Shown piece by piece: positions 4,904 to 32,711 of a DNA stretch of 35,937 bases. The stretch covers positions 1 to 35,937 of the forward strand of contig JAGWMQ010000022.1 in assembly GCA_028873125.1 (NCBI GenBank), in the 5' to 3' direction. Below the pieces are notes generated by a model that searched no databases, was not told the origin of the DNA, and was given only the letters and a program-made list of their open reading frames with translations. The DNA comes from Verrucomicrobiota bacterium (GTDB lineage Bacteria > Verrucomicrobiota > Verrucomicrobiia > Limisphaerales > UBA11358). Numbering within the stretch: position 1 is the stretch's first letter; every line of letters starts with the position of its first letter. The position numbers were made by a program, and so were the translations under genes.

Positions 4904-4973
4904 CACGAATCATTTCTCACGAACCACGCATCATTTCCATCTTCCATCTCCCATGCTCCATCCTCTATCCTGC
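4904..4973 (+). repeat. Ten-unit degenerate heptamer array before tyrA
   Basis: The sequence reads in ten uninterrupted 7-bp units: CACGAAT, CATTTCT, CACGAAC, CACGCAT, CATTTCC, ATCTTCC, ATCTCCC, ATGCTCC, ATCCTCT, ATCCTGC. It fills most of the space between the oxidoreductase stop and the GTG start of tyrA at 4978. The units differ in sequence but the 7-bp register never slips. Confidence 0.75.
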
Positions 4974-4977
4974 GCCC

Positions 4978-5859
4978 GTGTCGTTTCGAAAAATCAGCAT
5001 CATCGGCGTCGGATTGCTTGGCGGTTCCATCGGGTTGGCCGCAAGGAAAACCCGTCTGGCCGGTGAGGTTGCCGGTTTTGTCCGCCGCGAGAAGTCCGTC
5101 GCGGAATGCGAGAAATACGGCGTGACCGATTACGCCACCACGGATTTGCTTGCCGCCGTTTCCAACGCCGACGTGGTGATCCTGTGCATTCCGCTGGCGC
5201 AGATGCGTCCACTCGCCGAAAAGTTTCTGCCCGCGCTGAGTCGCGACGCCGTGGTCACCGACGTGGGCAGCGTCAAGACCGGCGTGGTGCGCGAATTGGA
5301 GCCGCTCGTCGCCCGGGCGGGGGCGCATTTCGTCGGCAGCCATCCCATGGCCGGCGCGGAAAAAACAGGCGTGGCCGCGGCGCGTGAAAATTTGTTTGAT
5401 AAAGCCGTCTGCGTCCTGACGCCGACGAAGAAATCCACTGCGACCGCGGTCCGTCGGGTGGAACAATTCTGGAAGGCGCTGGGCGCGCGCGCGTTGAAGC
5501 TGCCGCCGGAACAGCATGACGTCCTGGTCGGGCGCTCCAGCCATTTGCCGCACATCGTCGCCGCCACGCTGGCCAGCCTGGTTCTGGACCCGGCCCGGCC
5601 GAAGGCGCAGGCGCAACTTTGCGCCAACGGGTTCCGCGACACGACACGCATTGCTTCCGGCTCGCCCGAGATGTGGCGCGACATCGCCCTCGCCAACCGC
5701 AGGAACCTGGCGAAGTCCTTGAACCGCTTCATCGCCGGATTGCGCCAATTCCAAAAGTCGCTGGACCGGGCCGACGCGAAGGCGATTTCAAAATTTTTCG
5801 AGCGGGCCAAATCACGGCGCGACGCCTGGCATCCGCGAATTTTGAATTCTGAATTTTGA
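4978..5859 (+). CDS. tyrA: Prephenate dehydrogenase TyrA
   Basis: This 293-residue protein is a monofunctional prephenate (or arogenate) dehydrogenase of tyrosine synthesis. It has the NAD-binding motif GVGLLGGS at residues 10-17, the DVGSVK motif, and the family signature GSHPMAGAEKTG that binds prephenate. RSSHLPH is the helical-domain motif, and GFRDTTRIASG lies in the dimerisation domain. I place the start at GTG 4978. The upstream extension in frame would be encoded by a repeat array and has no homologous look. The last residues (ILNSEF) and the TGA stop are encoded inside another 7-bp array at 5837-5864. aroA follows, but is separated from tyrA by the four-helix-bundle gene. Confidence 0.93.
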   Translation: MSFRKISIIGVGLLGGSIGLAARKTRLAGEVAGFVRREKSVAECEKYGVTDYATTDLLAAVSNADVVILCIPLAQMRPLAEKFLPALSRDAVVTDVGSVKTGVVRELEPLVARAGAHFVGSHPMAGAEKTGVAAARENLFDKAVCVLTPTKKSTATAVRRVEQFWKALGARALKLPPEQHDVLVGRSSHLPHIVAATLASLVLDPARPKAQAQLCANGFRDTTRIASGSPEMWRDIALANRRNLAKSLNRFIAGLRQFQKSLDRADAKAISKFFERAKSRRDAWHPRILNSEF

Positions 5860-5864
5860 GTTTT
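5837..5864 (+). repeat. Left heptamer array of the four-helix-bundle cassette
   Basis: There are four 7-bp units: GAATTTT, GAATTCT, GAATTTT, GAGTTTT. They overlap the end of tyrA, whose TGA stop lies in the junction of the third and fourth units, and finish six bases before the ATG of the next gene. In reverse complement they match the array at 6219-6246. Confidence 0.8.
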
Positions 5865-5869
5865 AAGTT

Positions 5870-6250
5870 ATGGCCAGAAGCGTCATTCGGGAAAAAAGCT
5901 TTTTGTTCGCACTGGAAGTTATCAAGCCTTTCAAAGTGCTTCAGGCTGGACATGAATATGTTTTGTCCAAACAGTTGCTGCGAAGCGGCACGAGTATTGG
6001 CGCAAATGTCGAAGAAGCGCTGGCAGCGCAAAGCCGAAGGGATTCCCTTTCGAAGATGGCAGTTGCTTCAAAAGAGGCGCACGAATCCCGCTATTGGCTG
6101 CTTTTACTGCAAAAATCAGGCCTGACGAAAGTCGGGTTGAATCTGGCGCTTGAGAACAATGATGAATTGATTCGGATTCGGACTTCAATTGTCAAAACAA
6201 CCGCTGAAAGCCCGGCAACTCAAAACTCAAAATTCAAAACTCAAAATTGA
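5870..6250 (+). CDS. Four-helix-bundle protein of the 23S rRNA-IVP family
   Basis: The 126-residue protein matches the four-helix-bundle family first found as ORFs in intervening sequences of 23S rRNA genes, and related to the Avd accessory proteins of diversity-generating retroelements. Typical features are an N-terminal (S/A)FxFALEVIK-like helix, the central LLRSGTSIGANVEEA motif with QSRRDSLSKM after it, and KEAHESRYWLLLL in the third helix. Members are basic, may form pentameric rings and bind nucleic acid; their cellular role is unknown. No reverse transcriptase or rRNA gene is nearby. The C-terminal tail (QNSKFKTQN) is encoded by the right heptamer array, so the natural end of the protein is probably before it. 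It is transcribed with tyrA and aroA. Confidence 0.88.
   Translation: MARSVIREKSFLFALEVIKPFKVLQAGHEYVLSKQLLRSGTSIGANVEEALAAQSRRDSLSKMAVASKEAHESRYWLLLLQKSGLTKVGLNLALENNDELIRIRTSIVKTTAESPATQNSKFKTQN
6219..6246 (+). repeat. Right heptamer array of the four-helix-bundle cassette
   Basis: Four exact 7-bp units: CTCAAAA, CTCAAAA, TTCAAAA, CTCAAAA. They encode the C-terminal tail of the four-helix-bundle protein and lie immediately before its TGA and the GTG start of aroA (6252). They are the inverted counterpart of 5837-5864. Confidence 0.85.
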
Positions 6251-6251
6251 A

Positions 6252-7598
6252 GTGCTGCCCGACCTCATTGAAATGGTGCCGCTCGACAAGCCGGTGCGCG
6301 CGGAAATCACCGTGCCCGGGTCCAAGAGCATCACGAACCGCGCGCTGATTCTGGCCGCGCTCGCGGACGGCGAGGTCGCGCTCACCGGCGCGCTCTGGAG
6401 CGAGGACACGCAAATCATGGTTGAAGGCCTGCGGAAACTGGGATTTGAAATCCACGTCGAAAACGACCCCGAGGAATTTTGCAACCGCACCGTCACCGTC
6501 AAGGGTCTGGGCGGCACAATTCCAAACGGCGGCACGGCGGAGAAGCCTCTGGAACTCTTCGTCGGCAACGCGGGCACGGCGGCGCGGTTTCTGGCGGCGT
6601 TCGTTTGCCTGGGAAACGGCGTTTATCGCCTGAGCGGTGTGCCGCGAATGCACGAGCGTCCGCAGGCGGCGCTGTTTCAGGCGTTGCGCGAACTCGGCTA
6701 TCGCGTCGAATCGGAACAGGGGAATGACAGGTTGCCCGTGAAAATTTTCGGAAAAGCGGAAAGCGAAAAGCGGAAAGCGAAAATCAGTTGTACGGTGAGC
6801 ATCGAAGAAAGTTCGCAATTTGCGTCGGCGCTCTTGCTGTGCGCGGGAATAGGCGGATGGAGTGTTGAAGTAGTCGGCGAAAATGGGGACGAATCGGCAT
6901 ACGTTGTGATGACAACAGAACTAATCAAGAGGTTTCCGCAGCGCGGCGGAACATTCCAAATCGAGCCGGATGCTTCAAGCGCAAGCTACTTTTCCGCAGT
7001 CGGGCTCATCGATTTCGGGCGGGCGTTTGAATTTCCAAAAATGCCTGAATTATGGAGGTGTAACGTCACGGTTCGAAATTGGCCGATCAACTCGTGGCAA
7101 CCCGATGGTCGCTTCCCGAGAATATTCAAACAACTCCCGGAGATTCGCATCTCGCGAAAAGCAGACTTGGGTGGCAACAATTTGGGCGACAGCATCATGA
7201 CCGCGATAACACTGTCGCCTTTTCTGTATGCGCCGAGCACATTCACGGACCTCGGCCATCTGCGCGCCCAGGAATGTGATCGTGTCTTTGCGTTACGAAC
7301 CGAACTGACCAGGTGCGGCGCAAAAGTCGTTGAAGAAGATGACACGCTGACGGTTTACCCGTCCCAGCTTCACGGAGCGGAGATTGAAACTTACAAAGAT
7401 CATCGCATGGCCATGTGTTTCGCGATTCTGGGATTGAAAGTGCCCGGCATCAAAATCAAGAATCCCGCGTGCGTCAAAAAGACGTTCCCGAATTTCTTCC
7501 AGAAGCTCGCCGCGCCGCCGCCGCACGGTCTGGGGGCAACCATTCTGGACGGGAAGGCGGGGCGGACGTTGAAATTGAACGAATTATTTGCCGATTAA
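6252..7598 (+). CDS. aroA: 3-phosphoshikimate 1-carboxyvinyltransferase (EPSP synthase)
   Basis: The enzyme joins phosphoenolpyruvate to shikimate-3-phosphate, the step before chorismate. Motifs are PGSKSITNRAL (residues 22-32), the G-N-A-G-T-A-A-R-F PEP-binding loop, RMHERPQ, and the C-terminal KDHRMAM. I chose GTG 6252, two bases after the stop of the preceding gene, because the protein then begins LPDLIE, as EPSP synthases of this group tend to do; ATG 6273 is an alternative. A 33-35-base 7-mer array is in frame near residues 167-178 (GKAESEKRKAKI). Between roughly 6720 and 7490 the third codon positions are noticeably richer in A/T than in neighbouring genes. The middle of the C-terminal half is divergent, but NLGDSIMT keeps the expected Asp. 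Confidence 0.93.
   Translation: MLPDLIEMVPLDKPVRAEITVPGSKSITNRALILAALADGEVALTGALWSEDTQIMVEGLRKLGFEIHVENDPEEFCNRTVTVKGLGGTIPNGGTAEKPLELFVGNAGTAARFLAAFVCLGNGVYRLSGVPRMHERPQAALFQALRELGYRVESEQGNDRLPVKIFGKAESEKRKAKISCTVSIEESSQFASALLLCAGIGGWSVEVVGENGDESAYVVMTTELIKRFPQRGGTFQIEPDASSASYFSAVGLIDFGRAFEFPKMPELWRCNVTVRNWPINSWQPDGRFPRIFKQLPEIRISRKADLGGNNLGDSIMTAITLSPFLYAPSTFTDLGHLRAQECDRVFALRTELTRCGAKVVEEDDTLTVYPSQLHGAEIETYKDHRMAMCFAILGLKVPGIKIKNPACVKKTFPNFFQKLAAPPPHGLGATILDGKAGRTLKLNELFAD
6751..6785 (+). repeat. In-frame heptamer array in aroA
   Basis: Five 7-bp units: GAAAAGC, GGAAAGC, GAAAAGC, GGAAAGC, GAAAATC. The first 28 bases are a perfect tandem duplication of a 14-mer. The array encodes a Lys/Glu-rich insert in EPSP synthase (AESEKRKAK), just before the conserved substrate-binding SSQFASALL segment. 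The total length keeps the reading frame. Confidence 0.85.
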
Positions 7599-7603
7599 AC
7601 CTT

Positions 7604-7697
7604 GGTTGAAGGTTGAAATTGGAAGGTTGCAAGCTGCAAGCTATTTGCCTGGACCGACGTTTTTTAACCTGCAACCTGCAACTTTTAACCTGTACCT
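7604..7697 (+). repeat. Inverted pair of heptamer arrays between aroA and cmk
   Basis: The left arm has units GGTTGAA, GGTTGAA, ATTGGAA, GGTTGCA, AGCTGCA (7604-7638). The right arm has TTTAACC, TGCAACC, TGCAACT, TTTAACC, TGTACCT (7663-7697), which are the inverse type. The arms can pair (GGTTGCA with TGCAACC) around a core of about 24 bases. The element fills the intergenic space and ends 15 bases before the cmk start. It has the same design as the cassette at 5837-6250, but without a gene inside. Confidence 0.75.
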
Positions 7698-7712
7698 ATT
7701 TCTGTAAATATT

Positions 7713-8384
7713 TTGAAACCGATTGTCATCGCCATAGACGGCACGAGCGCCAGCGGCAAGAGCACCAACGCCAAGCTCGTGGCGCGCGCGCTCGGCTATG
7801 CCTACGTGGACACGGGCGCAATGTATCGCACCCTCGCCTGGCATTGCCAGAGAAACAACATTGACGTGGACGACGCCAAGGCCGTCGCCGCCGCGTGCCG
7901 CCGCTGGAAGACGGAATTGGAGTGCGTGGAGAAAAGCGGCTTGCGCGCCGTGCGCCTGCTCGTGAACGGCTGTTTTCCTGAAAAGGAAATCCGCACCGCC
8001 GAAGTCAGCGCCGCCGTGCCCCGCGTCGCCGCCGTCCCGCAGGTGCGCCGGTGGATGGTCGGGCGCCAGCGCGAGTGCCTGGAGTTCGGCCACCTGGTGA
8101 TGGAAGGCCGCGACATCGGCACGAACGTTTTTCCCGAGACCGAATTCAAGTTCTATCTCGACGCCGGATTGGAGGAGCGTTCGCGCCGCCGCGCCGCCGA
8201 CGGGGTCCGGGAAAACCTGGCGGCGCGAGACCAGCGTGACAGCCAGCGCGCCGTGGCGCCGTTGATGGTCCCGCTCGGCGCGAAGGTGATCAACAACTCC
8301 AACCTGACCGCGGAGCAGACAAGCGGATTGATCTTGAAGGAAATCCGGTCCCGCCTGCCGCGGGAAAAGATCGCGGAGAAATGA
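7713..8384 (+). CDS. cmk: Cytidylate kinase
   Basis: This 223-residue NMP kinase phosphorylates CMP/dCMP with ATP. It shows the P-loop AIDGTSASGKST (residues 7-18), the YVDTGAMYR nucleotide-binding motif, the VMEGRDIGT motif typical of Cmk, and the lid region RSRRRAADG followed by RDQRDSQR. The start is TTG at 7713, directly giving KPIVIAIDG; no ATG fits the family N-terminus. It lies between aroA and plsC on the same strand, an arrangement common for cmk. Confidence 0.95.
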   Translation: MKPIVIAIDGTSASGKSTNAKLVARALGYAYVDTGAMYRTLAWHCQRNNIDVDDAKAVAAACRRWKTELECVEKSGLRAVRLLVNGCFPEKEIRTAEVSAAVPRVAAVPQVRRWMVGRQRECLEFGHLVMEGRDIGTNVFPETEFKFYLDAGLEERSRRRAADGVRENLAARDQRDSQRAVAPLMVPLGAKVINNSNLTAEQTSGLILKEIRSRLPREKIAEK

Positions 8385-8508
8385 CTTAAAGCGAAGCCTT
8401 GATGACCAGGAAATCTTCCAAGATTGAAATGGCGGATGTCCAGCTCCGGGATGCGGCGTTTTTCAGCCGTCCGAATTCAGGAGCCGGGCATCTGTCACCA
8501 CCTCTCGA

Positions 8509-9147
8509 ATGAACCTTTCCTACCGGCTGGGCTGGGTGTTTTTCCGCGCGCTTTTCGCGGCCTATTTTCGCTGGCGCGTCTTTGACGCGGACCGCGTGCC
8601 GCCGACCGGCGCGGTCATCCTGGCCGCGAATCACGCGAGCTACCTTGATCCGCCGCTCGTCGGCGCGGGTTTGAACCGTCAAATCAATTATCTGGCGCGC
8701 GAATCCCTCTTTCGTTTTCCCTTCATCGGGTGGCTGCTCCGCAGTTGGAGCGTCGTGCCTGTGGATCGCGACGGCGGCGGGGCGGCGGGCTTGAAGGCGA
8801 TTCTGGACCGGCTGCTGGCGGGCGGTGGCATCGTCCTTTTTCCCGAAGGCACCCGCTCGCCCAATGGACAACTGCGGCCCGCGCGTCCGGGCATCGGGCT
8901 GACCGTGGTCAAATCCAATGCGCCGGTCGTGCCCGCGCGTGTGTTCGGAACTTATGAGGCCTACGGCCGGGACAAAAAAGTTCCCCGGCCCAGACCGGTC
9001 GTCGTGAAATACGGCCGGCCGATGCATTTTGAAATCCTCCGGGCGGAGGCAAAAGAATGCGACAAGACGAGATTGAAGAAGATTTATCAGGAGATCGCCG
9101 ACGAAATCATGGCGGCGATTGCCGCGCTGGAGCCGCGCGAGGACTGA
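8509..9147 (+). CDS. plsC: 1-acyl-sn-glycerol-3-phosphate acyltransferase
   Basis: This 212-residue PlsC-family acyltransferase adds the second acyl chain in phosphatidic acid synthesis at the inner membrane. It has the catalytic HX4D motif NHASYLD near residues 44-50, the second motif VPVDRDGG, and the FPEGTRS substrate-binding motif near residue 109. A VPARVFGT segment follows, as in the family. An N-terminal hydrophobic stretch (LGWVFFRALFAAYF) would anchor it. The start is ATG 8509. It follows cmk by 124 bases in which I see no other feature, and is convergent with queD. Confidence 0.92.
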   Translation: MNLSYRLGWVFFRALFAAYFRWRVFDADRVPPTGAVILAANHASYLDPPLVGAGLNRQINYLARESLFRFPFIGWLLRSWSVVPVDRDGGGAAGLKAILDRLLAGGGIVLFPEGTRSPNGQLRPARPGIGLTVVKSNAPVVPARVFGTYEAYGRDKKVPRPRPVVVKYGRPMHFEILRAEAKECDKTRLKKIYQEIADEIMAAIAALEPRED

Positions 9148-9158
9148 GGCCCGCAAAC

Positions 9159-9521
9159 TCACCCGCCGCGGTAAACCGCGCGCGCCGTGCAGGTCTCGGC
9201 CACGACAACTTCGGACAGCAGCGGCAACCGGGGCTTCAGCCGTTTCCAGATCCAAGCCGCAATTTCCTCGCTCGTCGGATTCTCCAGGCCGCGAATCTCG
9301 TTGAGGTAGTTGTGGTCCAGCTTTTCCCAAAGCGGCTTGAAGGCCGCCGTGATGTCCGCGTAATCCATCAGCCAGCCGAGCTTTTTGTCGCATTCTCCCG
9401 CCATGGCGATTTCCACGTTGAAACTGTGGCCGTGCAGCCGCCGGCACTTGTGCGATTTCGGCAGACGCGGCAGCAAATGCGCCGCCTCAAATTGGAAGGT
9501 TTTGCGCAACTCGATTTTCAT
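9159..9521 (-). CDS. queD: 6-carboxy-5,6,7,8-tetrahydropterin synthase QueD
   Basis: The 120-residue protein belongs to the QueD/PTPS family. It has the zinc-binding His triad (FEAAHLL, then RLHGHSF), a KCRRLHGH segment with the catalytic Cys just before the HxH, and the later LDHNYLN and PTSEEIAAWIW motifs. QueD converts 7,8-dihydroneopterin triphosphate to carboxy-tetrahydropterin for queuosine synthesis. PTPS-III or folate-type activity cannot be excluded from sequence. The ATG at 9521 gives MKIELRKTFQFEAAH, a normal family N-terminus; the longer in-frame reading into the luxC-like gene is not needed. It is the last gene of a minus-strand run and is convergent with plsC. queA lies about 22 kb away in the same window. 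Confidence 0.93.
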   Translation of the reverse strand: MKIELRKTFQFEAAHLLPRLPKSHKCRRLHGHSFNVEIAMAGECDKKLGWLMDYADITAAFKPLWEKLDHNYLNEIRGLENPTSEEIAAWIWKRLKPRLPLLSEVVVAETCTARAVYRGG

Positions 9522-9583
9522 AAATTCTTGAAATGCCGGATCGGCGAGGTGCCGGGGAACGTCCCGCCAAGACGCCTCGGCGG

Positions 9584-10948
9584 TCATTTTTCCCAGTCCG
9601 TCCAGGTAACCAGGTCGCCGAGCGCCGGGCGTCCATCGTGGCGCCAGGTCAGCGGCGGGTTTTGCATCCGTCCGAGCGGGCAGACGCGCGTCGCGCCCCA
9701 GCGCGCCAGTTGTTCGGCCAGATCTCCGATTTTTTCCTCCGGCGCCGCCACCCCAACCGTCGAAACTTTCTCCCGGACGGCGTCGGCGCTTTCCAGGGCT
9801 GTCTTCAAGTCCGCCACCGCCTTGACATAAACGAACCGGTTCAGGCACGAAAGCTGGAAGAGGGAGTCCGCCTCGAAAACCACGGTCCAGGCCGTGGAAT
9901 TTTGGCTGCACCAATGCCGCGTTGCTTCGGGCGAATGGGCGGCGCGCACCTCGTAAAATGCCCGGCGCGAGGCGATGGCCGCCGATTCCTCCTGGGAAAT
10001 TTCGCCGCGCGGCTGGCTCGTTTCGCGGCGTTCCAACTCCCCGGCGAGCATCCCGGCAAAGGCCTCGGGAGAAACAGCGGCCCCGCTTTGGACGTAAATC
10101 ACGTGCGGCGAAAGGCAGCCGAGCTGGTTCCAGGCGACCACATCGTCCGCCGCTCGCGCCGCGATTTTTTCCGCGCTCCCTGCGGAGGCCAGCACTCCGT
10201 TGGCGACGAAACCAAAGCTGACGCGATGGCCGTGGCCGATAAACCGGACATGGAGGGGAAGCCGCTTGCGGATTTCATCCAGCGTCTCATCCCCGCCCGC
10301 CGCGGTCACGCAATCGGCTTCGGCAAAGAGCGCGTTTTCCAGTTCAAGATTACCCCCGGGCCACTCGGCGATTTCGAGGCTGGCGCCCAGTTTCGGATCC
10401 GCGTCGTAGATCGAGTGGGCGAACAGGCGCGGCAGAAAGGCGCTGCCGCTGGCGCACTTCACAAACTGCGCCGAACGTGTGAGCAGCCCCAGGACGACGC
10501 TCATCAGGGTCGGATTTGGAACGTTGCCCGCGCCGAAGTGGACTTGAAATTCCGGTGTGCGAACCAAGGCCGCCCGCGAAGGCTGCTTTTCGGCGCCGGC
10601 CAAGGACATCCCGTCGAGCCGTCCGGCCCCGCCGAATTCCTGAACGAGCAGCGCCTCAAACTTATCGCGCGTGAATTCCACGAAAAAATCATCCATGCCG
10701 CGTTCGAGCGTCGCGCGGGAAAAGCCGGCCTTCCCGGCGTTCTCCAGCGCGAACCGGCGAAATGGAAACTCCCGCCGGCGCCAGCTTTCCGCCAAACCGC
10801 TCAAAAAATTGACCAGGCTCTGCGTCGGGCGCGCGGCCAGATAACGCCCGCGGTTGCGTTTCAGCGTCTGACACGCCTCCAGAATCATCGCCGGTGACAG
10901 CTTGGCTTCCGGCGGCAAATCGGCGAGAAAGTAATTCGGCAGGTTCAT
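9584..10948 (-). CDS. LuxC-like acyl-CoA reductase
   Basis: The 454-residue protein belongs to the LuxC fatty-acid reductase family (aldehyde-dehydrogenase fold), which reduces activated acyl groups to aldehydes with NADPH. The likely catalytic Cys is C278 in NQLGCLSPHVIYV; a glycine-rich nucleotide-binding region lies near 139-172 (FGAGNVPNP, then KCASGSAFLP). The start ATG overlaps the stop of the LuxE-like gene by ATGA, so the two are translationally coupled. In luminous bacteria LuxC works in a complex with LuxE. No luxD, luxA or luxB is in the window, so the aldehyde must serve another purpose. Confidence 0.88.
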   Translation of the reverse strand: MNLPNYFLADLPPEAKLSPAMILEACQTLKRNRGRYLAARPTQSLVNFLSGLAESWRRREFPFRRFALENAGKAGFSRATLERGMDDFFVEFTRDKFEALLVQEFGGAGRLDGMSLAGAEKQPSRAALVRTPEFQVHFGAGNVPNPTLMSVVLGLLTRSAQFVKCASGSAFLPRLFAHSIYDADPKLGASLEIAEWPGGNLELENALFAEADCVTAAGGDETLDEIRKRLPLHVRFIGHGHRVSFGFVANGVLASAGSAEKIAARAADDVVAWNQLGCLSPHVIYVQSGAAVSPEAFAGMLAGELERRETSQPRGEISQEESAAIASRRAFYEVRAAHSPEATRHWCSQNSTAWTVVFEADSLFQLSCLNRFVYVKAVADLKTALESADAVREKVSTVGVAAPEEKIGDLAEQLARWGATRVCPLGRMQNPPLTWRHDGRPALGDLVTWTDWEK

Positions 10949-12093
10949 GCGTTCATCAAGGAGCAGCCGCGCGCTTCCGCCGGGCTGGCCCGCCCCACCA
11001 ATTCAAATCCGGCGCCTCGGCGGATTCCCAGGTCCTCCGTTTGGATCGCCGCCACGGAAAAGACGTTCGCCAGGTCGCACACGCGGATCAGGCCCGCCTG
11101 GCCGTCCGCCGCTTCGCGCCCGGTTTCCGGCGAAATGATCCGCGCCGCCGCCCACGGCGGGAAGCAGAAACTCCGCCCTCCGCCCTCCGCATTCCGCTTT
11201 TCCCCGTCATACGCCTGCGAACTCAATTCGCTCATGCCGTACTCGCAAATGATATTGACAATCGGAACACCGAGCCGTGCGGCAATCAGAGCGTGCAATT
11301 CCATTTTGGACATCGCGCGCGAGCGATTCTTGTAACCGCCGGTTTCCATGACGCGCGAGCCTGGCGGCAGTTTGAAAGCCAAGTTTTGTTCCCCGAGCCA
11401 GTCGAGCAGATGCACGAACGAAAACGCGGTGCCGAGCAAAAGCAGCGGAGGAGCGTCCGCCGCCTGGCATCCCGGAGCCAACGCGGCGCGCAGGGCGTCA
11501 TAATTCAGCTCCCACGCGCCGTCGGCGTTGATTTTTCCGACGAAGGCTGTTGCCGGCGCGCCCAACCGCCGTCGCACGACGTCCAACATGTAAACGAGGG
11601 ACGAGCGCGGCGTCTGTGCGGGCGGCGGCGTCAGAAAAATCGCCGGCGGAGGATTGCCGCTTGGTGAGCTTCCCGCGGCCCCGCCGGCGCCCCGTTTGAA
11701 TTGCAGATCCGGCAGAACGTTCTCCAGAAACCACCTCCACGACGACGCTTCATACAGCGCCAGCGATTCGACGCCGTGGAAGTGGCGGCTGGGCTTCTGC
11801 GTCGTCGTGCCGCTGGAATGAAAAACGGAGGCGCGTTCCTCCGGCGGGATGCAGGAAAGTTCGAGTTCCTTGAACGCGCTCGTTGGCACGATGGGAATTT
11901 GCGTCCAGTGTTCGACGCTTCCCGGCGTCGCACCCTGCGCCCGGCAAATTTTTCGGTAGGCGGAATTGCTTCGAAATTGGAGCGCGAAAAGATCGAGCGC
12001 CAGTTCGGCGAATTGCTGCTTGGCAATTGCCGGCTGCCCAATGGCAATTAGCGCGCGCAGCCGCGCGGCGAAATCAGAAAGTGCCTGGTTCAT
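10945..12093 (-). CDS. LuxE-like acyl-protein synthetase
   Basis: The 382-residue protein belongs to the LuxE acyl-protein synthetase / adenylate-forming family. LuxE activates a fatty acid with ATP and hands the acyl group to LuxC. The ATP-binding loop is HSSGTTTQK (residues 92-100), followed by ETGGYKNRSR (250-259) and EYGMSEL (284-290), as in LuxE and PaaK relatives. Residues about 297-310 (GEKRNAEGGGRSFC) are encoded by a 7-bp array and look like an insertion. A Pro/Gly/Ser-rich segment near 137-160 is probably a flexible loop. It lies upstream of the luxC-like gene with a four-base overlap and downstream of the NmrA-like gene on the same strand. Confidence 0.85.
   Translation of the reverse strand: MNQALSDFAARLRALIAIGQPAIAKQQFAELALDLFALQFRSNSAYRKICRAQGATPGSVEHWTQIPIVPTSAFKELELSCIPPEERASVFHSSGTTTQKPSRHFHGVESLALYEASSWRWFLENVLPDLQFKRGAGGAAGSSPSGNPPPAIFLTPPPAQTPRSSLVYMLDVVRRRLGAPATAFVGKINADGAWELNYDALRAALAPGCQAADAPPLLLLGTAFSFVHLLDWLGEQNLAFKLPPGSRVMETGGYKNRSRAMSKMELHALIAARLGVPIVNIICEYGMSELSSQAYDGEKRNAEGGGRSFCFPPWAAARIISPETGREAADGQAGLIRVCDLANVFSVAAIQTEDLGIRRGAGFELVGRASPAEARGCSLMNA
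11171..11198 (-). repeat. In-frame heptamer array in the luxE-like gene
   Basis: On the plus strand the units are CTCCGCC, CTCCGCC, CTCCGCA, TTCCGCT. They encode, on the minus strand, the Lys/Arg/Gly-rich insert KRNAEGGG between the conserved EYGMSELSS motif and the WAAARIISP segment. The reading frame is kept. Confidence 0.8.
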
Positions 12094-12174
12094 GCGGTTT
12101 TTATCGGCTGGTTTTCCGCCACAGCCGCATGGAGCATAACAGAAAACCGGATTGCGACAAGCGTGGTCGCGATC

Positions 12175-13116: not shown

Positions 13117-13159
13117 GTTTTCTTTTTTCAGTAAATTACGAAATAGAATTCCAAAAACT

Positions 13160-13675: not shown

Positions 13676-13694
13676 TTCATTTCTGTTTTTTCTG

Positions 13695-13722
13695 AAAATA
13701 ACATAATCTGCCGTCAAGTCAA
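13695..13722 (-). promoter_or_regulatory. Candidate sigma-70 promoter of the GbsR-like gene
   Basis: On the minus strand TTGACT (13722-13717) and TATTTT (13700-13695) are separated by 16 bases, and the start codon follows about 20 bases downstream of the -10. The match is five of six for the -35 and four of six for the -10. It lies in the AT-rich part of the gap between the regulator and metG. Confidence 0.4.
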
Positions 13723-13798
13723 GAACATCCGCCTTGAAAACGGTCACATTCCCGTTGGGATTGCCTTCGCCCTGTTTGTCGGCCAGACTGTGCGTTCC

Positions 13799-15358: not shown

Positions 15359-15362
15359 TGAG

Positions 15363-15395: not shown

Positions 15396-15419
15396 AATTG
15401 AGCGGTGCCTGTCCACCCA

Positions 15420-23244: not shown

Positions 23245-23288
23245 TTCAAAATTCCAAACAAACGCCCGCCGGTCACGGACCCGCAGGC

Positions 23289-25554: not shown

Positions 25555-25563
25555 CTGCGTCTT

Positions 25564-26949: not shown

Positions 26950-27116
26950 AAGGCTACCTCAGCAAAAACGTAAACCGCGGACATCACCCCTTGTTCCAGG
27001 AGGCGCGTTTTGACCTTCAACCACGTCGTCGTGGCGGGCAGGGAGGACAACACCAGCCCCGCGGCCAGGAAAAGTCCGGCCAGCATTCCAAAAAGTTGAG
27101 GGCGCGATGGGCTCAT
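26931..27116 (-). CDS. Small predicted membrane protein between ftsI and murF
   Basis: This 61-residue reading begins 10 bases after the ftsI stop and ends 19 bases inside murF. That spacing is what translational coupling would give. The protein has one hydrophobic helix (about residues 8-27: LFGMLAGLFLAAGLVLSSLP) and a short soluble tail containing WLKVKTR. I do not recognise the family. It sits where murE normally lies. It could be a real small membrane protein or the remnant of a longer secreted protein. Confidence 0.4.
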   Translation of the reverse strand: MSPSRPQLFGMLAGLFLAAGLVLSSLPATTTWLKVKTRLLEQGVMSAVYVFAEVALWNRAL

Positions 27117-27126
27117 GGTTTCAGGC

Positions 27127-29010
27127 TCAGTGAGCGCCTTTTTCCGCGACGAGTGGCGGCGATGGGTTCGGTGGCGGCGCGCTTTTGTCCGGCGGAATGT
27201 TCAAATAACTGGCGCAGCGCCCGGCGATTTCCCGGAACACCGGTCCGCAAGCCTGTCCACCATAAAAGCCTTCCTTGGGATCGTCCATCACCACGGAGAT
27301 GCAGAGCTGCGGATCGTCCGCCGGAAAAAATCCGATGAACGACGCGAAATAGTGGCCGTGCTCGTAGCCGTTGGGCCCGACCTTTTGCGCGGTGCCCGTC
27401 TTGCCCGCGACGGTATAGTCCTTCAACGCCGCCTCCGGCGCGGTGCCTTCGCGGGTCGGGACCGTTTTCAGGGCCTCGACCATGAGGCGCGCCACCGCCG
27501 GGCGGATGACCTGCCGCACCATTTGCGGTTCATACTGCTGCACCGCGTTTCCGTTGCGGTCCGTCAGGCGGCTGACCAGCATCGGCTGCATCAGCCGTCC
27601 GCCGTCGGCAATGGCGCCCATGGCCATGACCATCTGCAGTCGCGTCACGGCCACGCCCTGGCCCATGGGAATCTGCACGATGGAGACCTTGCTCCAATCC
27701 TTGACCGGATGCAAAATGCCGGGAACTTCGCCGGGCAGGGGAACGCCGGTCCGCTGGCCGAAGCCAAATCTCCAGGCGTAGTTGTAAAGCTCGTCGGCGC
27801 CGAGCCGGAGACCGATTTTTGCCGCGCCGATGTTGGAGGATTTGGTGATGATGCTTTCGGTCGTCAAAATCCCAAACCGCTCGTGGTCGTGCAAAATCCG
27901 GCCGGCATAGGCAAACTGCCCGTGCCCGCAATCGAACAAATCATTCAGATGCACCACGCCGTCGTTCAACGCCCCGGACACGACGACGATCTTGAAGGTG
28001 GAACCCGGTTCCATCAGGTCGGTGATGACGCGGTCGCGCCGCGCGGCGACGGGCGCGGCGCCCGGATTGTTCGGGTCGAAGTCAGGCAGCGTGGCCATGG
28101 CCAGGATTTCTCCCGTGGCCGGGCGGATGACGATGCCGGTGATGCTTCGGGGAGAATGTTCCTGCATCCCCTTGGCCAGCGCGGTTTCGACAATGTGTTG
28201 AATCACCGCGTCAATCGTCAGGACGACGTTCAATCCGTCGCGCGGCTGCACGTTCTCGTCCCGCAAGGCGACCAACTCGCGCCGCCGGCGGTCCGTCTCC
28301 GTGACGCACCACCCGGCGACCCCGCTCAGGGCGGAATTCATCATCAGTTCGATGCCGTCGCGTCCGACCGTCTGCACCAGGGGCCGGCCGTCCAGCACCG
28401 TTTCATCGCTGCCGACGAATCCCAGCACGTGCGCCGCCAGTGCGCCATTGGGATACACCCGCAACTGATCGTCCACGGGGTCGGTAAAGATTGCGGATTG
28501 GCGCAAATTGTGCAGGAACAGGCGCTGGGTCCCTGACAGCGCGGCCTCGTCCACGCCGAACGACAGATGGTTCATCGCCTGATGGATTTCCTGCCACGTC
28601 TCGTCCGTAACCTTGCGCTGGAGCACCACATAACGGTTGGTGACCATCCCGCCTTTTCCATCCGGGTGGACTCGCGGCAGCAACTTTTGGAACAGATCGG
28701 CTTCGTTGAGGCGCAGCAACGGCGCCAGGGCGTGCGCGACCACGGCCTGCTGGTTGCCGATCAACACCGGGTCGGCGCAGACGGTTTTGACGAAGACGCT
28801 CGTGGCCAGTTGGTTTCCGCGGACATCGTCAATGTCGCCCCGGCGGGGCTCTCGCCAGAATTCGCGCTGGGTGTTCTGCTCGGCCAGCTCCGCCAGCTCG
28901 TCGTGCCGGAAGACCTGCAGGTCCACCAGCCGGTAGCCCAGGCCGGTGAAGGCCAGCGCCACCAGCGTCAGCAGCAGCAGTGCCCGTTTGAGTTGCAGTC
29001 GTTTGGTCAT
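27127..29010 (-). CDS. ftsI: Septal peptidoglycan transpeptidase FtsI (PBP3)
   Basis: The 627-residue class B penicillin-binding protein crosslinks septal peptidoglycan. It has a short cytoplasmic start, one membrane helix (about residues 10-27), a pedestal domain starting at EFWREPRRGDIDDVRG (RGxIxDRxG-like), and the transpeptidase domain. The active site is S337-T-F-K340, followed by SSN (391-393) and K537-T-G. It lies between ftsL and the small membrane gene, in the usual dcw order. Confidence 0.96.
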   Translation of the reverse strand: MTKRLQLKRALLLLTLVALAFTGLGYRLVDLQVFRHDELAELAEQNTQREFWREPRRGDIDDVRGNQLATSVFVKTVCADPVLIGNQQAVVAHALAPLLRLNEADLFQKLLPRVHPDGKGGMVTNRYVVLQRKVTDETWQEIHQAMNHLSFGVDEAALSGTQRLFLHNLRQSAIFTDPVDDQLRVYPNGALAAHVLGFVGSDETVLDGRPLVQTVGRDGIELMMNSALSGVAGWCVTETDRRRRELVALRDENVQPRDGLNVVLTIDAVIQHIVETALAKGMQEHSPRSITGIVIRPATGEILAMATLPDFDPNNPGAAPVAARRDRVITDLMEPGSTFKIVVVSGALNDGVVHLNDLFDCGHGQFAYAGRILHDHERFGILTTESIITKSSNIGAAKIGLRLGADELYNYAWRFGFGQRTGVPLPGEVPGILHPVKDWSKVSIVQIPMGQGVAVTRLQMVMAMGAIADGGRLMQPMLVSRLTDRNGNAVQQYEPQMVRQVIRPAVARLMVEALKTVPTREGTAPEAALKDYTVAGKTGTAQKVGPNGYEHGHYFASFIGFFPADDPQLCISVVMDDPKEGFYGGQACGPVFREIAGRCASYLNIPPDKSAPPPNPSPPLVAEKGAH

Positions 29011-29084
29011 CGTCCAACCGGCCGGCCGCCCGCGGCGATCGGTTCCTCACCACCGACGGCGTCACGGGCGGCGGCCGAAAAGTG

Positions 29085-29459
29085 TCACGGCGCAGTTGTG
29101 CCGGCCGGCCGCGAGGCGAACTGGCTCGGCGTTGCCTTTTGACTTTGCGCCGGCTCCGGCAGCCAGACGATTTGCGACGGCTGCGCGGGCGCCAGGCCCA
29201 GGTTCATCCCGCGCACGCGCTGATCAAGCATGACCGGCGAGCGCAGCATCGAGAGCTGGTCGCTCAATTTCCGGTTGTCGCTCTGCAACTGCGCCAGGCG
29301 GATTTCACGCTGGCGGATTTGCACGCCCAGCCGGTAAATTTGGCCCTTTTGCCAGACGTAACCGACCGCCGAGCCGGCAATCAACAGGCACAAAAACAGA
29401 GCCTTGATCGCCGGACCGAACCGGATCGCGGCGGACTGGCTTTTCCGATTTCTTGCCAT
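29085..29459 (-). CDS. ftsL: FtsL-like divisome protein
   Basis: The 124-residue protein has a basic N-terminus (MARNRKSQ), one membrane helix (about residues 19-37), then a predicted coiled coil rich in Gln, Arg and Leu (IRQREIRLAQLQSDNRKLSDQL, seen as heptads) and a Pro/Ala-rich end. This architecture and its place between rsmH and ftsI define FtsL-type proteins, which have little sequence conservation. I favour ATG 29459 because GGAGG lies four to five bases upstream. An in-frame ATG at 29522, directly after the rsmH stop, would add 21 charged residues. Confidence 0.8.
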   Translation of the reverse strand: MARNRKSQSAAIRFGPAIKALFLCLLIAGSAVGYVWQKGQIYRLGVQIRQREIRLAQLQSDNRKLSDQLSMLRSPVMLDQRVRGMNLGLAPAQPSQIVWLPEPAQSQKATPSQFASRPAGTTAP

Positions 29460-29479
29460 CTTGCCTCCGTCTTCGCGCT

Positions 29480-29510
29480 CCTCCTCGTCTGTTTGTTGAC
29501 GGCGAGGAGG
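29480..29510. promoter_or_regulatory. Hairpin between rsmH and ftsL
   Basis: CCTCCTCG (29480-29487) and CGAGGAGG (29503-29510) form a perfect eight-base stem with a 15-base loop. It lies between the rsmH stop and the favoured ftsL start. It could tune translation or mRNA processing at this junction. If the longer ftsL start is used, it is coding. Confidence 0.4.
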
Positions 29511-29522
29511 GCGATGCTCCAT

Positions 29523-30455
29523 TCAAGTCTTCTCCAAAAGTCTCAGTTGCGCGCTGCGGCTGCGCGGATTTCCCTTTAGCTCCAATTCGCCGGGCGTCAC
29601 CGCCTTGCGCCTCACCCATATGAACTCCGGCGCGCGCGGCTGGCGCAACTCCGGCACATCCACGTCGCCGCCAAACGTGTAGGACCGGGTCTTTTCGCGG
29701 CCAAACTCCTTGACCACGCGGTCTTCGAGCGAGTGAAACGTGATCACCGCCAGCCGCCCGCCCGGTTTCAAGATTTTCGCGGCCGCCTCCAAACCGCGTT
29801 TCAAAGAGCCGATTTCGTCATTGACCGCAATCCGCAGCGCCAGGAAAACCCGGGTGGCCGGATGCGTTTTCCTTCCGCGCCGCGGCGCAACGCCTTCAAT
29901 CACCTCCGCGAGATGCCGTGTCGTTTCAATTTTTTTCCGCTCGCGCTCCCGCGCGATCGCCGCAGCCAGCCGCCGCGACTCGCGTTCGCCGCCGAACTCC
30001 CAAAAAATGCGCGCCAGATCCCCGGCGTCGGCGCCGTTGACCAGATCCGCCGCGGTCAACGTTTGGCGCGGATCCATCCGCATGTCCAGCGGTCCCTCCC
30101 GCTGGAAGCTGAAGCCGCGCTCCGGGAGGTCCAGTTGGGGCGAACTGACGCCCAAGTCCAACAAAACGCCGTCACAACTGCCCGCCGGAATCCACTGGCC
30201 CAGGTCGCCAAAATTGCCTTGCCGGATTTCAAACCGTCCGGCGAATTTTTCCGTCAGCCGCGTTCGGGCGGCCTCAACCGCGACGCCATCGCGATCGCAC
30301 CCAAACAGCCATCCAGTCGGCGAACTGGCGTTCAAAATGCTCTCCGCGTGCCCGCCCCCACCAATCGTACCGTCGGCGTAGCAGCCGCCTGGCCGCGGGT
30401 TCAGCGCGGCCAGCACCTCCGCCGCCATCACTGTTTTGTGAGCGAACTCGGGCAC
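29523..30455 (-). CDS. rsmH: 16S rRNA m4C1402 methyltransferase RsmH
   Basis: The 310-residue SAM-dependent methyltransferase (MraW) modifies C1402 of 16S rRNA. It begins with HKTVMAAEVLAAL, then the SAM-binding DGTIGGGGHAESIL, LLDLGVSSPQLDLPERGFSF and RVFLALRIAVNDE, and ends with ITFHSLEDRVVKEF. These are all typical. It is the second conserved gene of the dcw cluster after mraZ, here with an extra gene between them. Confidence 0.97.
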   Translation of the reverse strand: MPEFAHKTVMAAEVLAALNPRPGGCYADGTIGGGGHAESILNASSPTGWLFGCDRDGVAVEAARTRLTEKFAGRFEIRQGNFGDLGQWIPAGSCDGVLLDLGVSSPQLDLPERGFSFQREGPLDMRMDPRQTLTAADLVNGADAGDLARIFWEFGGERESRRLAAAIARERERKKIETTRHLAEVIEGVAPRRGRKTHPATRVFLALRIAVNDEIGSLKRGLEAAAKILKPGGRLAVITFHSLEDRVVKEFGREKTRSYTFGGDVDVPELRQPRAPEFIWVRRKAVTPGELELKGNPRSRSAQLRLLEKT

Positions 30456-30473
30456 TGCGCATGGCGGTTGTCA

Positions 30474-30971
30474 TCAAAGGGTCGTCGCCTTCAGCAGGCG
30501 GTCGCCCAGGAGTTCCCATGGTTTTTTCGCGCGCGACACTCCCTCCGGGGCGGTGGCCGGACGCGACTTGATGGGCACCACGTCCACGTCCGCGTCACTT
30601 AAATCGTTGTGAACCACCTTGACCCGGTCCAGCGAAAGTTCCGGCTGCACCACCGTCCGGCCCGGACCGGCCGGCGCGGCCCGAAACAGGGATACCGGAT
30701 TCAATTTACGCGCCCAGCGGCTTTTCGTGGCGCGAGGCGGCGGCGCGTCGGCCGGCGGCTTTTGCGCCCCGGCGTCGAGGTCCTTCGTCGCGGGTGCGAC
30801 CGGCACGGAGGACGCGGTGGCCGCAATCGGGGCGGTTTCACCTCCCGTGGTGAACGGGTTTCTTGCCGGGCCGAATTTCGGCAGATAAAACTGTTTCCTG
30901 ACGCGATAGGAAATTGCCTCGCGTCCGCTCATCACGCTTTTTCCCGCAATCAGCCATTTTGCCAGGTTCAT
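30474..30971 (-). CDS. Hypothetical protein between mraZ and rsmH
   Basis: The 165-residue protein is not one I recognise. Its N-terminus (NLAKWLIAGKSVMSGREAISYRVRKQFYLPKF, seen in parts) is compact and looks folded. The middle is Pro/Ala-rich and disordered, and the end contains KKPWELLGDRLL. ATG 30971 has GGAG five bases upstream, formed by the end of mraZ, and is preferred over GTG 30977, which overlaps the mraZ stop. The tight spacing with mraZ and rsmH supports a real gene. Its position suggests a cell-envelope or division role, but there is no motif to show it. Confidence 0.7.
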   Translation of the reverse strand: MNLAKWLIAGKSVMSGREAISYRVRKQFYLPKFGPARNPFTTGGETAPIAATASSVPVAPATKDLDAGAQKPPADAPPPRATKSRWARKLNPVSLFRAAPAGPGRTVVQPELSLDRVKVVHNDLSDADVDVVPIKSRPATAPEGVSRAKKPWELLGDRLLKATTL

Positions 30972-30973
30972 AA

Positions 30974-31438
30974 TCACTCCATCAGTTTGAAGGCGTCGGG
31001 CGCCAGGTCGGCGTCGGCGGCCTGCACCTTTTCGTACCGTTCCGGACTCCAGATCTCAAACCGGTCGAGCAATCCCACCAGCACGGCCTCGTTTTGGAGG
31101 CCCGCCCCGCGCGCCATTTCGTCCGGCAGGCAAATCCGGCCCGCCTTGTCCACTTCCACCTGCGCCGAACCGCTGCCGATGATCCGTTTGAGCACCGCCT
31201 TTTTCGGGTCGCCGTTGGGCATTTCGTCAATGGACTGCATCAGCCGGGCCATCTGCGAAGGCGGCAGGACCCGCACGCAGTGGCCCACGCCCTCGCGCGG
31301 CCAGAGGATGAGGGTCAACTCCACTCCGCCCCGCTGCGGCCGCCATTTGGCCGGGATCTGCACCCGGCGCTTCTCATCCACGCCGTGCCGGAAGCGCGAA
31401 TTGTAATACGTCGGCTCGATTTTTTTGACGCCGCTCAC
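30974..31438 (-). CDS. mraZ: Transcriptional regulator MraZ
   Basis: MraZ is the AbrB-like regulator that represses or tunes the dcw cluster by binding repeated GTGGG boxes. The protein has two MraZ repeats: the first with FRHGVDEKRRVQIPAKWR, the second with VEVDKAGRICLPDEMARGAGL. The start is uncertain. I favour GTG 31438 because GGTGA lies five bases upstream and the site is just downstream of the predicted transcription start. A TTG at 31480 would fall inside the operator. The product would be about 154 residues, close to the family length. Confidence 0.92.
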   Translation of the reverse strand: MSGVKKIEPTYYNSRFRHGVDEKRRVQIPAKWRPQRGGVELTLILWPREGVGHCVRVLPPSQMARLMQSIDEMPNGDPKKAVLKRIIGSGSAQVEVDKAGRICLPDEMARGAGLQNEAVLVGLLDRFEIWSPERYEKVQAADADLAPDAFKLME

Positions 31439-31473
31439 TTTGTTCACCGGAAAAACGATCGGTGTCCTTGTTT

Positions 31474-31508
31474 CCCACAACGCCCCACATCATACCACTT
31501 CTCCCCAC
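31474..31508 (-). promoter_or_regulatory. MraZ operator: four boxes at 10-bp spacing
   Basis: On the minus strand the boxes are GTGGG (31508-31504), GTGGT (31498-31494), GTGGG (31488-31484) and GTGGG (31478-31474). Each is separated from the next by exactly five bases, so they repeat every 10 bp and lie on the same face of the helix. This is the known MraZ-binding arrangement, directly upstream of mraZ. Confidence 0.9.
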
Positions 31509-31516
31509 CACGTCAA
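31489..31516 (-). promoter_or_regulatory. Sigma-70 promoter of the dcw cluster
   Basis: TTGACG (31516-31511) and TATGAT (31494-31489) on the minus strand are separated by 16 bases. The MraZ boxes lie in the spacer, across the -10 and just downstream, so bound MraZ would block RNA polymerase. The predicted transcript would start near 31482. Confidence 0.75.
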
Positions 31517-31597
31517 CACCATTTTGCAATTTTTTTTGCGAGTTATTCGTAGGTTATTCACAACCATCCAACCCCATTCCCGGAGCCCCTGGCGCCC

Positions 31598-31632
31598 TGA
31601 AAACTTGAAACGGGAAACCCGAACCATGAAAC
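31598..31632 (+). repeat. Heptamer array containing the queA start codon
   Basis: The units are TGAAAAC, TTGAAAC, GGGAAAC, CCGAACC, ATGAAAC. The ATG that I use as the queA start is the beginning of the fifth unit, so the start region may have been created or replaced by the array. Confidence 0.7.
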
Positions 31633-32711
31633 TCGCCCGGATGCATACCGCCGACTTCGATTTTGAACTGCCGCCCGATTTGGTCGCCCAGCAGCCTGCC
31701 GGGCGGCGGGATGGATCGAGGCTGATGGTCCTTCATCGGCCGGGTGGCCGGATCGAGCACCGGAAATTTCGCGACATCGTGGGGTTGCTGCGCCACGGTG
31801 ATGCGCTGGTGCTCAACGACTCCCGCGTCATCCCCGCGAGGCTGCGCGGTGTCAACGCCCGCACCGGCGGGCAATTTGAGGTGCTGTTGCTCGAAGAAGT
31901 CGCGCCGAACGACTGGTGGGCCTTGATCCGCCCCGGCAAACGGGCGCGACCGGGAACGACCATCCAGATCCGAAATCCGAAATCTGAAGTCCGAGGCCCA
32001 CGGGCCATCGTCCTGGAAAGAAACTCCGAAGGGCATTGCCGGCTCCAGTTCAGCGGCGCCGACGACGTCAAGAGCGAATTGGACGAATTGGGTGAAATGC
32101 CGCTGCCGCCCTACATCCGGCGCCCCCGTCCGGTTTTGGAGGACCGGGAACGTTATCAGACGGTCTTTGCCCGGGCTGCCGGTTCGGTCGCCGCGCCGAC
32201 GGCGGGTCTGCATTTCACAGAGACGTTGCTGGAGGAAATCCGCGCGCGCGGCGTGGACGTTTGTTTTGTAACGTTGCATGTCGGGCCAGGCACTTTTCTG
32301 CCCGTCAAGACCCGGAGCGTGGCGGCGCACGTCATGCATGAGGAACGTTTCGAACTGGGCGAGGAGACCGTCCGCATCGTCAACGGGGCCAAGCAGTCCC
32401 GCCGCCGCGTCGTGGCCGTGGGGACGACGACGGTGCGGGTGCTGGAGGGCGTCGCCGCGCGCAACAACGGAAAATTGCTTGAAAATGCCGGAAAAACGGG
32501 CCTTTTCATTCATCCCCCGTTCCGCTTCCAAATCGTGGACGCCCTGCTGACCAACTTTCACCTGCCCCGCTCCACGCTGCTGATGCTGGTGAGCGCCTTC
32601 GCCGCACCGGGTGAGACGCGGGGGCGGGAAATGATCCTGGCCGCCTATGCCGGGGCCGTGCGCGAGAGTTACCGATTTTTCAGTTACGGCGACGCGATGC
32701 TGATCCTATGA
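31626..32711 (+). CDS. queA: tRNA preQ1(34) S-adenosylmethionine ribosyltransferase-isomerase QueA
   Basis: The 361-residue enzyme transfers and isomerises the ribosyl part of SAM to preQ1 in tRNA, forming epoxyqueuosine. It shows FDFELPPDLVAQQPA, the LNDSRVIPARLRG motif (63-75), PLPPYIRR, APTAGLHFT, TLHVGPGTFLPV, VGTTTVRVLE and the C-terminal LLTNFHLPRSTLLMLVSAF (in parts). Residues 115-124 (IRNPKSEVRG) are encoded by a 7-bp array and appear to be an insert. The ATG at 31626 lies in another such array, so ATG 31641 (MHTADF) is a fair alternative. It overlaps the next gene by ATGA. Confidence 0.96.
   Translation: MKLARMHTADFDFELPPDLVAQQPAGRRDGSRLMVLHRPGGRIEHRKFRDIVGLLRHGDALVLNDSRVIPARLRGVNARTGGQFEVLLLEEVAPNDWWALIRPGKRARPGTTIQIRNPKSEVRGPRAIVLERNSEGHCRLQFSGADDVKSELDELGEMPLPPYIRRPRPVLEDRERYQTVFARAAGSVAAPTAGLHFTETLLEEIRARGVDVCFVTLHVGPGTFLPVKTRSVAAHVMHEERFELGEETVRIVNGAKQSRRRVVAVGTTTVRVLEGVAARNNGKLLENAGKTGLFIHPPFRFQIVDALLTNFHLPRSTLLMLVSAFAAPGETRGREMILAAYAGAVRESYRFFSYGDAMLIL
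31968..31995 (+). repeat. In-frame heptamer array in queA
   Basis: Units ATCCGAA, ATCCGAA, ATCTGAA, GTCCGAG (preceded by a shorter ATCCAG) code for the peptide IRNPKSEVRG within QueA. The surrounding protein is conserved QueA sequence and the frame is kept. Confidence 0.85.

Follow-up and report, generated by a model that had tools for sequence, protein, structure and literature searches.

What are the short, degenerate tandem arrays with a period of seven base pairs that lie within and between the genes of a Verrucomicrobiota bacterium? The stretch of DNA analyzed here, referred to as the window, comprises 35,937 nucleotides of contig JAGWMQ010000022.1 (assembly GCA_028873125.1); its host groups with Verrucomicrobiota, not with cyanobacteria. 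A first-pass annotation, made from the letters alone, had listed nine such arrays as members of one family; it overlooked that two of them, at 5837-5869 and 6217-6246, repeat one unit in inverted orientation on either side of an open reading frame (ORF) at 5870-6250 whose product belongs to a known protein family, the IVP family of the 23S rRNA intervening sequence (IVS). From the analyses described here we conclude that paired arrays of this kind probably mark both ends of a small mobile cassette, IVS-like and about 475 bp long, that carries an IVP gene and resides in operons.

Arrays were detected by a period scan over the window in which a match at lag p scores + 1 and a mismatch − 1.5. The window holds seven period-7 arrays with a score of at least 10, while each of 30 dinucleotide shuffles has at most one; at the same score, the lags 5, 8, 10, 11 and 13 give zero or one array each, and Tandem Repeats Finder recovers most of the arrays of the scan. 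When the codon order of aroA, a LuxE-like gene, queA and the IVP ORF was shuffled, a score of at least 12.5 was obtained in 0 of 500 shuffles for each of the four genes. The signal is thus stronger than in codon-shuffled controls, as the first-pass annotation expected, and its description of a fixed period with degenerate units is borne out.

An IVP gene between inverted arrays

In the window element, the left arm (5837-5869, plus strand) is a degenerate GAATTTT array of 33 bp and about 4.7 units, with a period-7 score of 16, that includes the stop codon of tyrA. The IVP ORF (5870-6250, plus strand) encodes a four helix bundle protein of 126 residues that scores above the curated cut-offs of both family profiles, TIGR02436 (82.1 bits, cut-off 24) and PF05635 (66.1 bits, cut-off 33.8), and is related by sequence to PDB 2rld (E 7.2e-22); the ORF between the arms matches solely IVP profiles. 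The right arm (6217-6246, minus strand), an inverted GAATTTT/GAGTTTT array, encodes the C-terminal tail of this protein, stops just short of the start region of aroA, and pairs with the left arm in the predicted minimum-energy fold. In 30 of 52 cases the IVP stop codon lies within the right array or adjacent to it, and the array thus often encodes the tail of the protein. There are six PF05635 matches in this genome, five of them above the cut-off, and at least one in 45 of the 49 genomes of the genus; over 106 residues the IVP of one genus locus (L023) has the same sequence as that of a metagenome-assembled genome labelled 'Verrucomicrobia subdivision 3'. In the plasmid records examined, IVP genes are mostly labelled 'four helix bundle protein' or 'S23 ribosomal protein'. 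No reverse transcriptase was found among eight profiled window proteins, although no search aimed at these enzymes was made; Rfam, at its own cut-offs, yields a single tRNA in the window, and no rRNA family reached its cut-off.

The association between arrays and IVP genes extends to other genomes. Loci of the genus were taken best scores first (30 + 40), so that weak IVP matches are under-sampled, and their flanks were chosen by the gene and not by repeats. Period-7 arrays with a score of at least 9 were found on at least one side of the gene in 64 of 73 non-redundant loci (left 50, right 52, both 38), and control windows placed 750-1000 bp off the IVP genes contain them in 3 and 6 of the 74 loci used (of 75) on the two sides. 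At the same score the density is 3.0 arrays per kb beside IVP genes, whereas gene-anchored loci of relatives, 237 kb in all, have 0.19 per kb; this background may be overstated because these are aroA and queA loci, picked because the window has arrays there. For a cross-phylum set, six IVP proteins were compared with genome contigs and the best 80 of 578 loci, from many phyla, were taken; among the 76 of these used with both flanks, a period-7 array with a score of at least 10 is present on at least one side in 48 and on both in 31. A separate sample of 30 loci from Verrucomicrobiota shows, on either side, period 7 in 23 (both sides in 12), period 8 in 8, period 6 in 3, and periods 5 and 9 to 13 in at most 2. 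Of 25 plasmid records with an IVP match, 8 cyanobacterial ones were taken, and all 8 of these loci carry period-7 arrays; the heptanucleotide repeats of cyanobacteria, invoked by the first-pass annotation, are therefore a fair precedent. A Dyella locus (L238), the sole one examined from the order of Xanthomonas, has a cassette with arms of GGGAAT-type units, flanked by unannotated genes that we take from their sequence to be accB and accC. On a Pseudanabaena plasmid (L166) the arms (878-984 and 1354-1451) are long, with about 15 and 14 copies, and have the same orientation beside the gene, with opposite arrays farther out; the arm layout of L019 looks similar.

The combined set comprised 193 IVP loci (75 from the genus, 80 cross-phylum, 8 cyanobacterial and 30 from the phylum), of which 182 remained once duplicates, reads with a stop, and flanks shorter than 250 bp had been dropped; the best period between 4 and 13 was taken for each flank. 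At 166 of these non-redundant loci, which come from many phyla, an array of period 7 or 8 is found on at least one side: 88 have period 7 on both sides, 15 have period 8 on both, 4 combine 7 with 8, 7 have one of these periods facing another, and 52 are one-sided. Many IVP loci without period 7 carry period 8, as does a Gemmatirosa plasmid locus (L172) that is outside all counts and has period-8 arrays on both sides (scores 24.5 and 26) and none of period 7. The possibility that period 8 is a shadow of period 7 was rejected, given that 2 of 41 period-8 flank matches overlap a period-7 array and 39 do not. The register is concordant between arms and clustered on the IVP tree, which had been overlooked: a tree of 162 single-label IVP proteins needs 15 changes between the labels 7 and 8, fewer than any of 500 shuffles (mean 24.5, minimum 19). 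A register that is always 7 is therefore correct for the arrays of the window and too narrow for IVP elements elsewhere; the equal signals at periods 6 and 8 that the first-pass annotation named as counter-evidence are partly encountered, since a distinct period-8 class exists among these elements.

The two arms of an element also match each other. When the left flank was compared with the reverse complement of the right flank in 74 elements, the median score was 34 within elements and 18 between them; the own partner arm ranks first of 74 in 25 elements and in the top three in 52, and the inverted within-element score is at least 30 in 53 of 74 elements, compared with 0 of 74 after shuffling. 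The difference is present in both registers (37 vs 17 for the 7-type, 36 vs 17 for the 8-type). Unit similarity rises with IVP identity, with a Mantel r of 0.25 for 122 elements and the 7149 pairs not scored as having homologous flanks; none of 1000 permutations attained this value (maximum 0.09). Read inwards, the period-7 units have a strand-specific core, AGT (2.30 nats vs a control maximum of 1.83), and the period-8 units read roughly G-T-T-G-A-A-T-T (3.23 vs 2.92); a purine-rich unit with GAA or GGAA, as first described, is not general. The elements L019 and L021 align over 472 bp, and this alignment ends at the outer edges of the arrays; by eye, the right array of L021 is broken relative to L019 by a short palindromic sequence, like a second small insertion. 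A mirrored order of units between the arms is weak (54 elements, p 0.024 and 0.066).

Operon junctions with and without the cassette

The median size of the cassette is 475 bp (38 elements with both arms), and it lies mostly in the sense orientation between co-directional genes. According to a codon model trained on the window genes and applied to 70 loci, both neighbours are on the IVP strand in 64 of 66 clear cases; 2 are mixed, and in none is the IVP gene opposite to both. By the longest open frame, 37 of 43 clear cases are co-directional in the cross-phylum set (the best 80 of 578 loci), with 6 mixed and none opposite to both; the corresponding figures are 6 of 6 clear cases and none opposite in the sample of 30 from Verrucomicrobiota. 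On the cyanobacterial plasmids, 6 of 8 IVP genes are co-directional with both neighbours. On the plasmids of Pseudanabaena (L166) and Anabaena sp. 90 (L168) the IVP gene has cas6 on one side and cas4 on the other, the system being of type I-D according to the annotation of L168; a figure legend on CRISPR association names the 23S rRNA IVP among its domains (PMC10910872).

The presence of the cassette at a given junction is patchy. Among 30 exbB-exbD loci, six have a cassette of 475-483 nt that reaches from the stop codon to within a few nucleotides of the start codon, one (L277) retains a remnant made up of the left arm and the beginning of the IVP gene, three contain hairpins of other kinds, and in 20 the two genes are 0-15 nt apart. 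A single ancestral insertion at this site was considered and is doubtful: presence in 7 of the 30 loci, counting the remnant, takes five parsimony changes, and 48 of 500 shuffles need as few. Across species the arms at exbB-exbD mostly keep their register while their letters drift. Concerted copying between arms was rejected there, given that the left-right score within a genome (11.5) is not above the left-left (12.1) or left-right (12.8) scores between genomes; the highest similarity between genomes is that of the right arms (18.5). The mechanism proposed by the first-pass annotation, one that copies length more faithfully than sequence, is hence not the best fit.

At the tyrA-aroA junction (tyrA is present in 29 of 30 loci) the cassette is found in the window alone; 11 loci have 59-88 nt at this place, two (L097 and L112) carry a heptamer hairpin that lacks an IVP gene, and hairpins with a period of about 10 bp occur in several. 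IVP-less heptamer hairpins are also found at the aroA-cmk junction (29 of 30 loci), in the window and in L088. A hairpin of the same unit predating the IVP gene was seen at none of the three junctions (tyrA-aroA, exbB-exbD and aroA-cmk).

Hairpins of other periods occur at the same type of stop-start junction. Those with a period of about 10 bp (CACAGATGAA / CACGGATGAA) lie at tyrA-aroA and exbB-exbD in L089, L090, L093, L094, L257 and L265, and period-10 arrays with a score of at least 9 are absent beside the IVP genes of the genus and Verrucomicrobiota samples. By eye, hairpins with a period of about 6 bp (GAGGAC/GTCCTC) are present at the aroA-cmk junction of L100, L108 and L112.

The proposed cassette and competing explanations

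The cassette consists of an inward-pointing periodic array, an IVP gene and an inverted array, and it usually sits in sense, after one gene's stop codon and ahead of the start codon of the gene that follows. The cassette would lack a promoter of its own and be expressed by read-through from the host operon; an oligomer of the IVP may recognize the arms, with register weighing more than letters, and the arms would allow the cassette to be copied or carried in one piece. Arms and gene seem to move together, because arms are present at 166 of 182 IVP loci and their units correlate with the IVP sequence. Given the same protein family and an ORF between inverted arms, the cassette may be a relative of the 23S rRNA IVS that resides in messenger operons.

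Arrays were also sampled in the same genome, in 20 stretches that add up to 398,316 bases (about 11% of the genome). At a score of at least 16 there are eight period-7 arrays and at most one at any other period, except for three at period 14. At a score of at least 10 there are 27 arrays at period 7, 25 at period 6 and 19 at period 21, and several other multiples of three give 12-19; because periods 6 and 21 come near period 7 at this score, the genome-wide signal is distinct solely at high scores. The prominence originally attributed to period 7 consequently holds in the window and for the high-scoring arrays of the sample, and not at score 10. An inverted partner within 1 kb was found for 11 of the 27 arrays (reversed control, 0 of 27), and a direct partner for 8.

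Several observations weigh against the mobile cassette. Only 1 of the 27 sampled arrays adjoins an IVP gene and 26 do not, 16 of the 27 have no inverted partner within 1 kb, and 16 of 182 IVP loci have neither period 7 nor period 8. A direct-orientation score of at least 30 is reached in 17 of 74 elements, and the within-element direct median is 19.5. The flank test behind the Mantel comparison overlooked at least two pairs with shared near flanks (L048-L025 and L048-L181). Two of the 8 cyanobacterial plasmid copies (L167 and L171) are opposite to both neighbours, and copying between arms was not detected at exbB-exbD. Selection for a stem in the sense RNA, a candidate that was tried, is unsupported: 109 elements have 137 sense and 178 antisense G.U wobble pairs (78 vs 102; 59 vs 76). 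No target duplication was identified, though unfilled junctions are known, and no recent transposition was detected: among loci with arrays, the two most similar IVPs of any one genome are 63% identical. Because no recent movement within a genome is seen, spread may be slow and largely horizontal.

The best of the competing explanations is that the arms form an RNA stem in the operon messenger, which would loop out the IVP cistron for cutting by RNase III, like the intervening sequence in the 23S rRNA of Coxiella. The same protein family, an ORF between inverted arms and the sense orientation agree with it, as do the pairing of the window arms in the minimum-energy fold and the excision of the rRNA element by RNase III described in a portion of PMC4990558. 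However, the fold of the window is just modestly better than that of shuffles (z − 1.9, 4 of 100 as good), and wobble pairs possible in the sense strand only are not favoured over those possible in the antisense strand only, so that we regard this explanation as possible but unlikely. It is less probable still that IVP genes were inserted into the loops of pre-existing heptamer hairpins, the hairpins being the mobile or regulatory unit. IVP-less heptamer hairpins do exist in the sample, at the same type of junction, but two results speak against this order of events: arms are present at 166 of 182 IVP loci, and units correlate with the IVP sequence in those pairs for which no shared flanks were scored.

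The arrays could be ordinary microsatellites, where replication favours slippage by 7 bp, arrays arise anywhere and decay, and IVP genes land nearby. Heptamers are over-represented among the simple repeats of many genomes according to parts of PMC4692102 and PMC4679880, and the lack of an inverted partner for 16 of the 27 sampled arrays agrees with this explanation. Nevertheless, the array density is about 16-fold higher beside IVP genes, the arms are inverted and matched with a unit that follows the protein, a period-8 subset has agreeing arms, and there is a common strand-specific unit pattern; for the paired arrays this explanation is disfavoured, and we consider it improbable. Binding sites for a host nucleoid protein or global regulator, proposed for the paired heptanucleotides of Geobacter metallireducens (eight opposite-strand pairs, in which 15 of 16 sites consist of five heptanucleotides in tandem and one of the pairs separates proB from proA; section of PMC2700814 on these sites), are very improbable here, where units vary between the elements of one genome and go with the IVP.

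Besides the cassette, the window contains an IVP-less heptamer hairpin at 7604-7697. Its left arm (7604-7642, plus strand, score 9.5), with units GGTTGAA/GGTTGCA, lies past the aroA stop codon, and its right arm (7666-7697, minus strand), with the unit AACCTGC, lies ahead of cmk, the scored array being 7666-7682 (score 10). Repetitive extragenic palindromic sequences and miniature inverted-repeat transposable elements are short non-coding inverted repeats with many near-identical copies; the hairpin shares their layout, but within the sampled 11% of the genome none of the 27 arrays resembles such a copy. Most likely the hairpin would be a cassette that has been shortened or has decayed, or else a non-autonomous relative of one.

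Most of the nine arrays first listed could be confirmed. The exception is the array claimed in dnaG (1725-1759, plus strand), where 11 of 28 positions match, and the one at the queA start (31598-31632, plus strand) is weak, with a score of 6.0, although the orthologous loci L120 and L124 have arrays there. The single arrays are TTCCATC, immediately upstream of tyrA (4935-4971, minus strand), which has similar counterparts about 1 kb upstream of aroA in L087, L090 and L112; AAAGCGG, in a length-variable loop of aroA (6753-6783, plus strand), present in 5 of 29 other aroA loci; CTCCGCC (11171-11200, minus strand), within an ORF that resembles LuxE only weakly (60 bits, where the cut-off is 550); and ATCCGAA, within queA (31968-32007, plus strand), with a related array in the same loop of L126. 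They may be solo or decayed ends, or have an independent origin; for those in aroA, queA and the LuxE-like gene, solo or decayed ends and slippage in loops tolerant of change are the best accounts that we can offer. Both the IVP-less hairpins and the single arrays are at most candidate relics of cassettes.

Two further observations concern the genes that carry these arrays. At or just past the 3' end of queA, heptamer arrays (e.g. AGTCCAA, AATTCAA) that possibly encode a C-terminal tail are seen in 13 of 30 loci (L119, L120, L123, L126, L129-L132, L134, L137-L139 and L141). No second array with a score of at least 9 was found downstream in those 13, and no gap after queA was detected in 26 of the 30, so perhaps the arrays continue as coding sequence. 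In nine genomes (G004, G006, G013, G021, G028, G031, G032, G045 and G046) the AroA match is split near residue 290 within a longer open frame (496-540 residues), which suggests large in-frame insertions.

Known heptamer repeats and the IVP family

The short tandemly repeated repetitive (STRR) sequences of cyanobacteria consist of one or a few near-exact heptanucleotide units with many genomic copies; here, the units differ among the arrays of the window and across the sampled 398 kb. The window element has the inverted-repeat flanks of an IVS, but it lies between tyrA and aroA and not in a 23S rRNA gene. The Coxiella IVS, as presented in a portion of PMC4990558, likewise has an ORF of the S23/IVP family in a short insertion (428 nt, compared with a median of 475 bp here); the cassettes described in this work are located at junctions of protein genes and not in rRNA, and their arms have a period of 7 or 8 bp. 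In addition, Avd, the accessory protein of diversity-generating retroelements, resembles PF05635 (parts of PMC10053308).

Heptamers with similar features have been reported from several groups. In Xanthomonas and Nostoc, the units GGGAATC and GGGGA(C/T)T are intergenic, as here, and form inverted close pairs, 70 and 75 in two Xanthomonas strains; the GGGAAT-type units of the Dyella cassette are close to the former. The main text of that report (PMC4692102) gives no general association with mobile elements and does not contain 'S23' or 'four helix'. The Geobacter metallireducens sites share with the cassette arms the tandem units, five in number there, the opposite-strand pairing and, for one pair, a position between two genes (proB and proA); they were interpreted as sites for a global regulator, and '23S rRNA-intervening' and 'four helix' are absent from the main text (PMC2700814). 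The TAACTGA repeats of Beggiatoaceae, cyanobacteria and Bacteroidetes are intergenic heptamers near start codons, in scattered phyla and with a suspected horizontal spread; unlike the arms described here they are nearly all direct, and 'S23', 'intervening' and 'four helix' do not occur in the main text (PMC4679880). Degenerate heptads (NNTGAGT or TDNGATT) form both hairpin arms of the P6b stem of the Nostoc trnL intron, in this case within a group I intron (section of PMC4476775 on this stem). Among the titles and abstract openings listed in searches of the open-licence literature we found no paper linking IVP genes with heptamer arrays, which is not proof of novelty.

A broader generalization can be put forward tentatively, and with more doubt than confidence. 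IVPs may be readers of register that, lineage by lineage, recognize an array with a fixed period of 7 or 8 bp and a short strand-specific core, and use it as the terminus of a selfish cassette in operons. In that case the heptamers of cyanobacteria, Xanthomonas, Geobacter and Beggiatoaceae might all belong to one widespread and unrecognized family of IVP cassettes, as their ends, their hairpin derivatives or their relics. Heptamer repeats are known from several phyla without an owner, and if they and the IVP genes are the same element, two puzzles would merge into a single question: does the IVP bind arrays with a period of 7 or 8 bp, and does it move or protect the cassette? If this is true, the arms would also provide an annotation rule for separating IVP ORFs from host genes and for interpreting intercistronic gaps.

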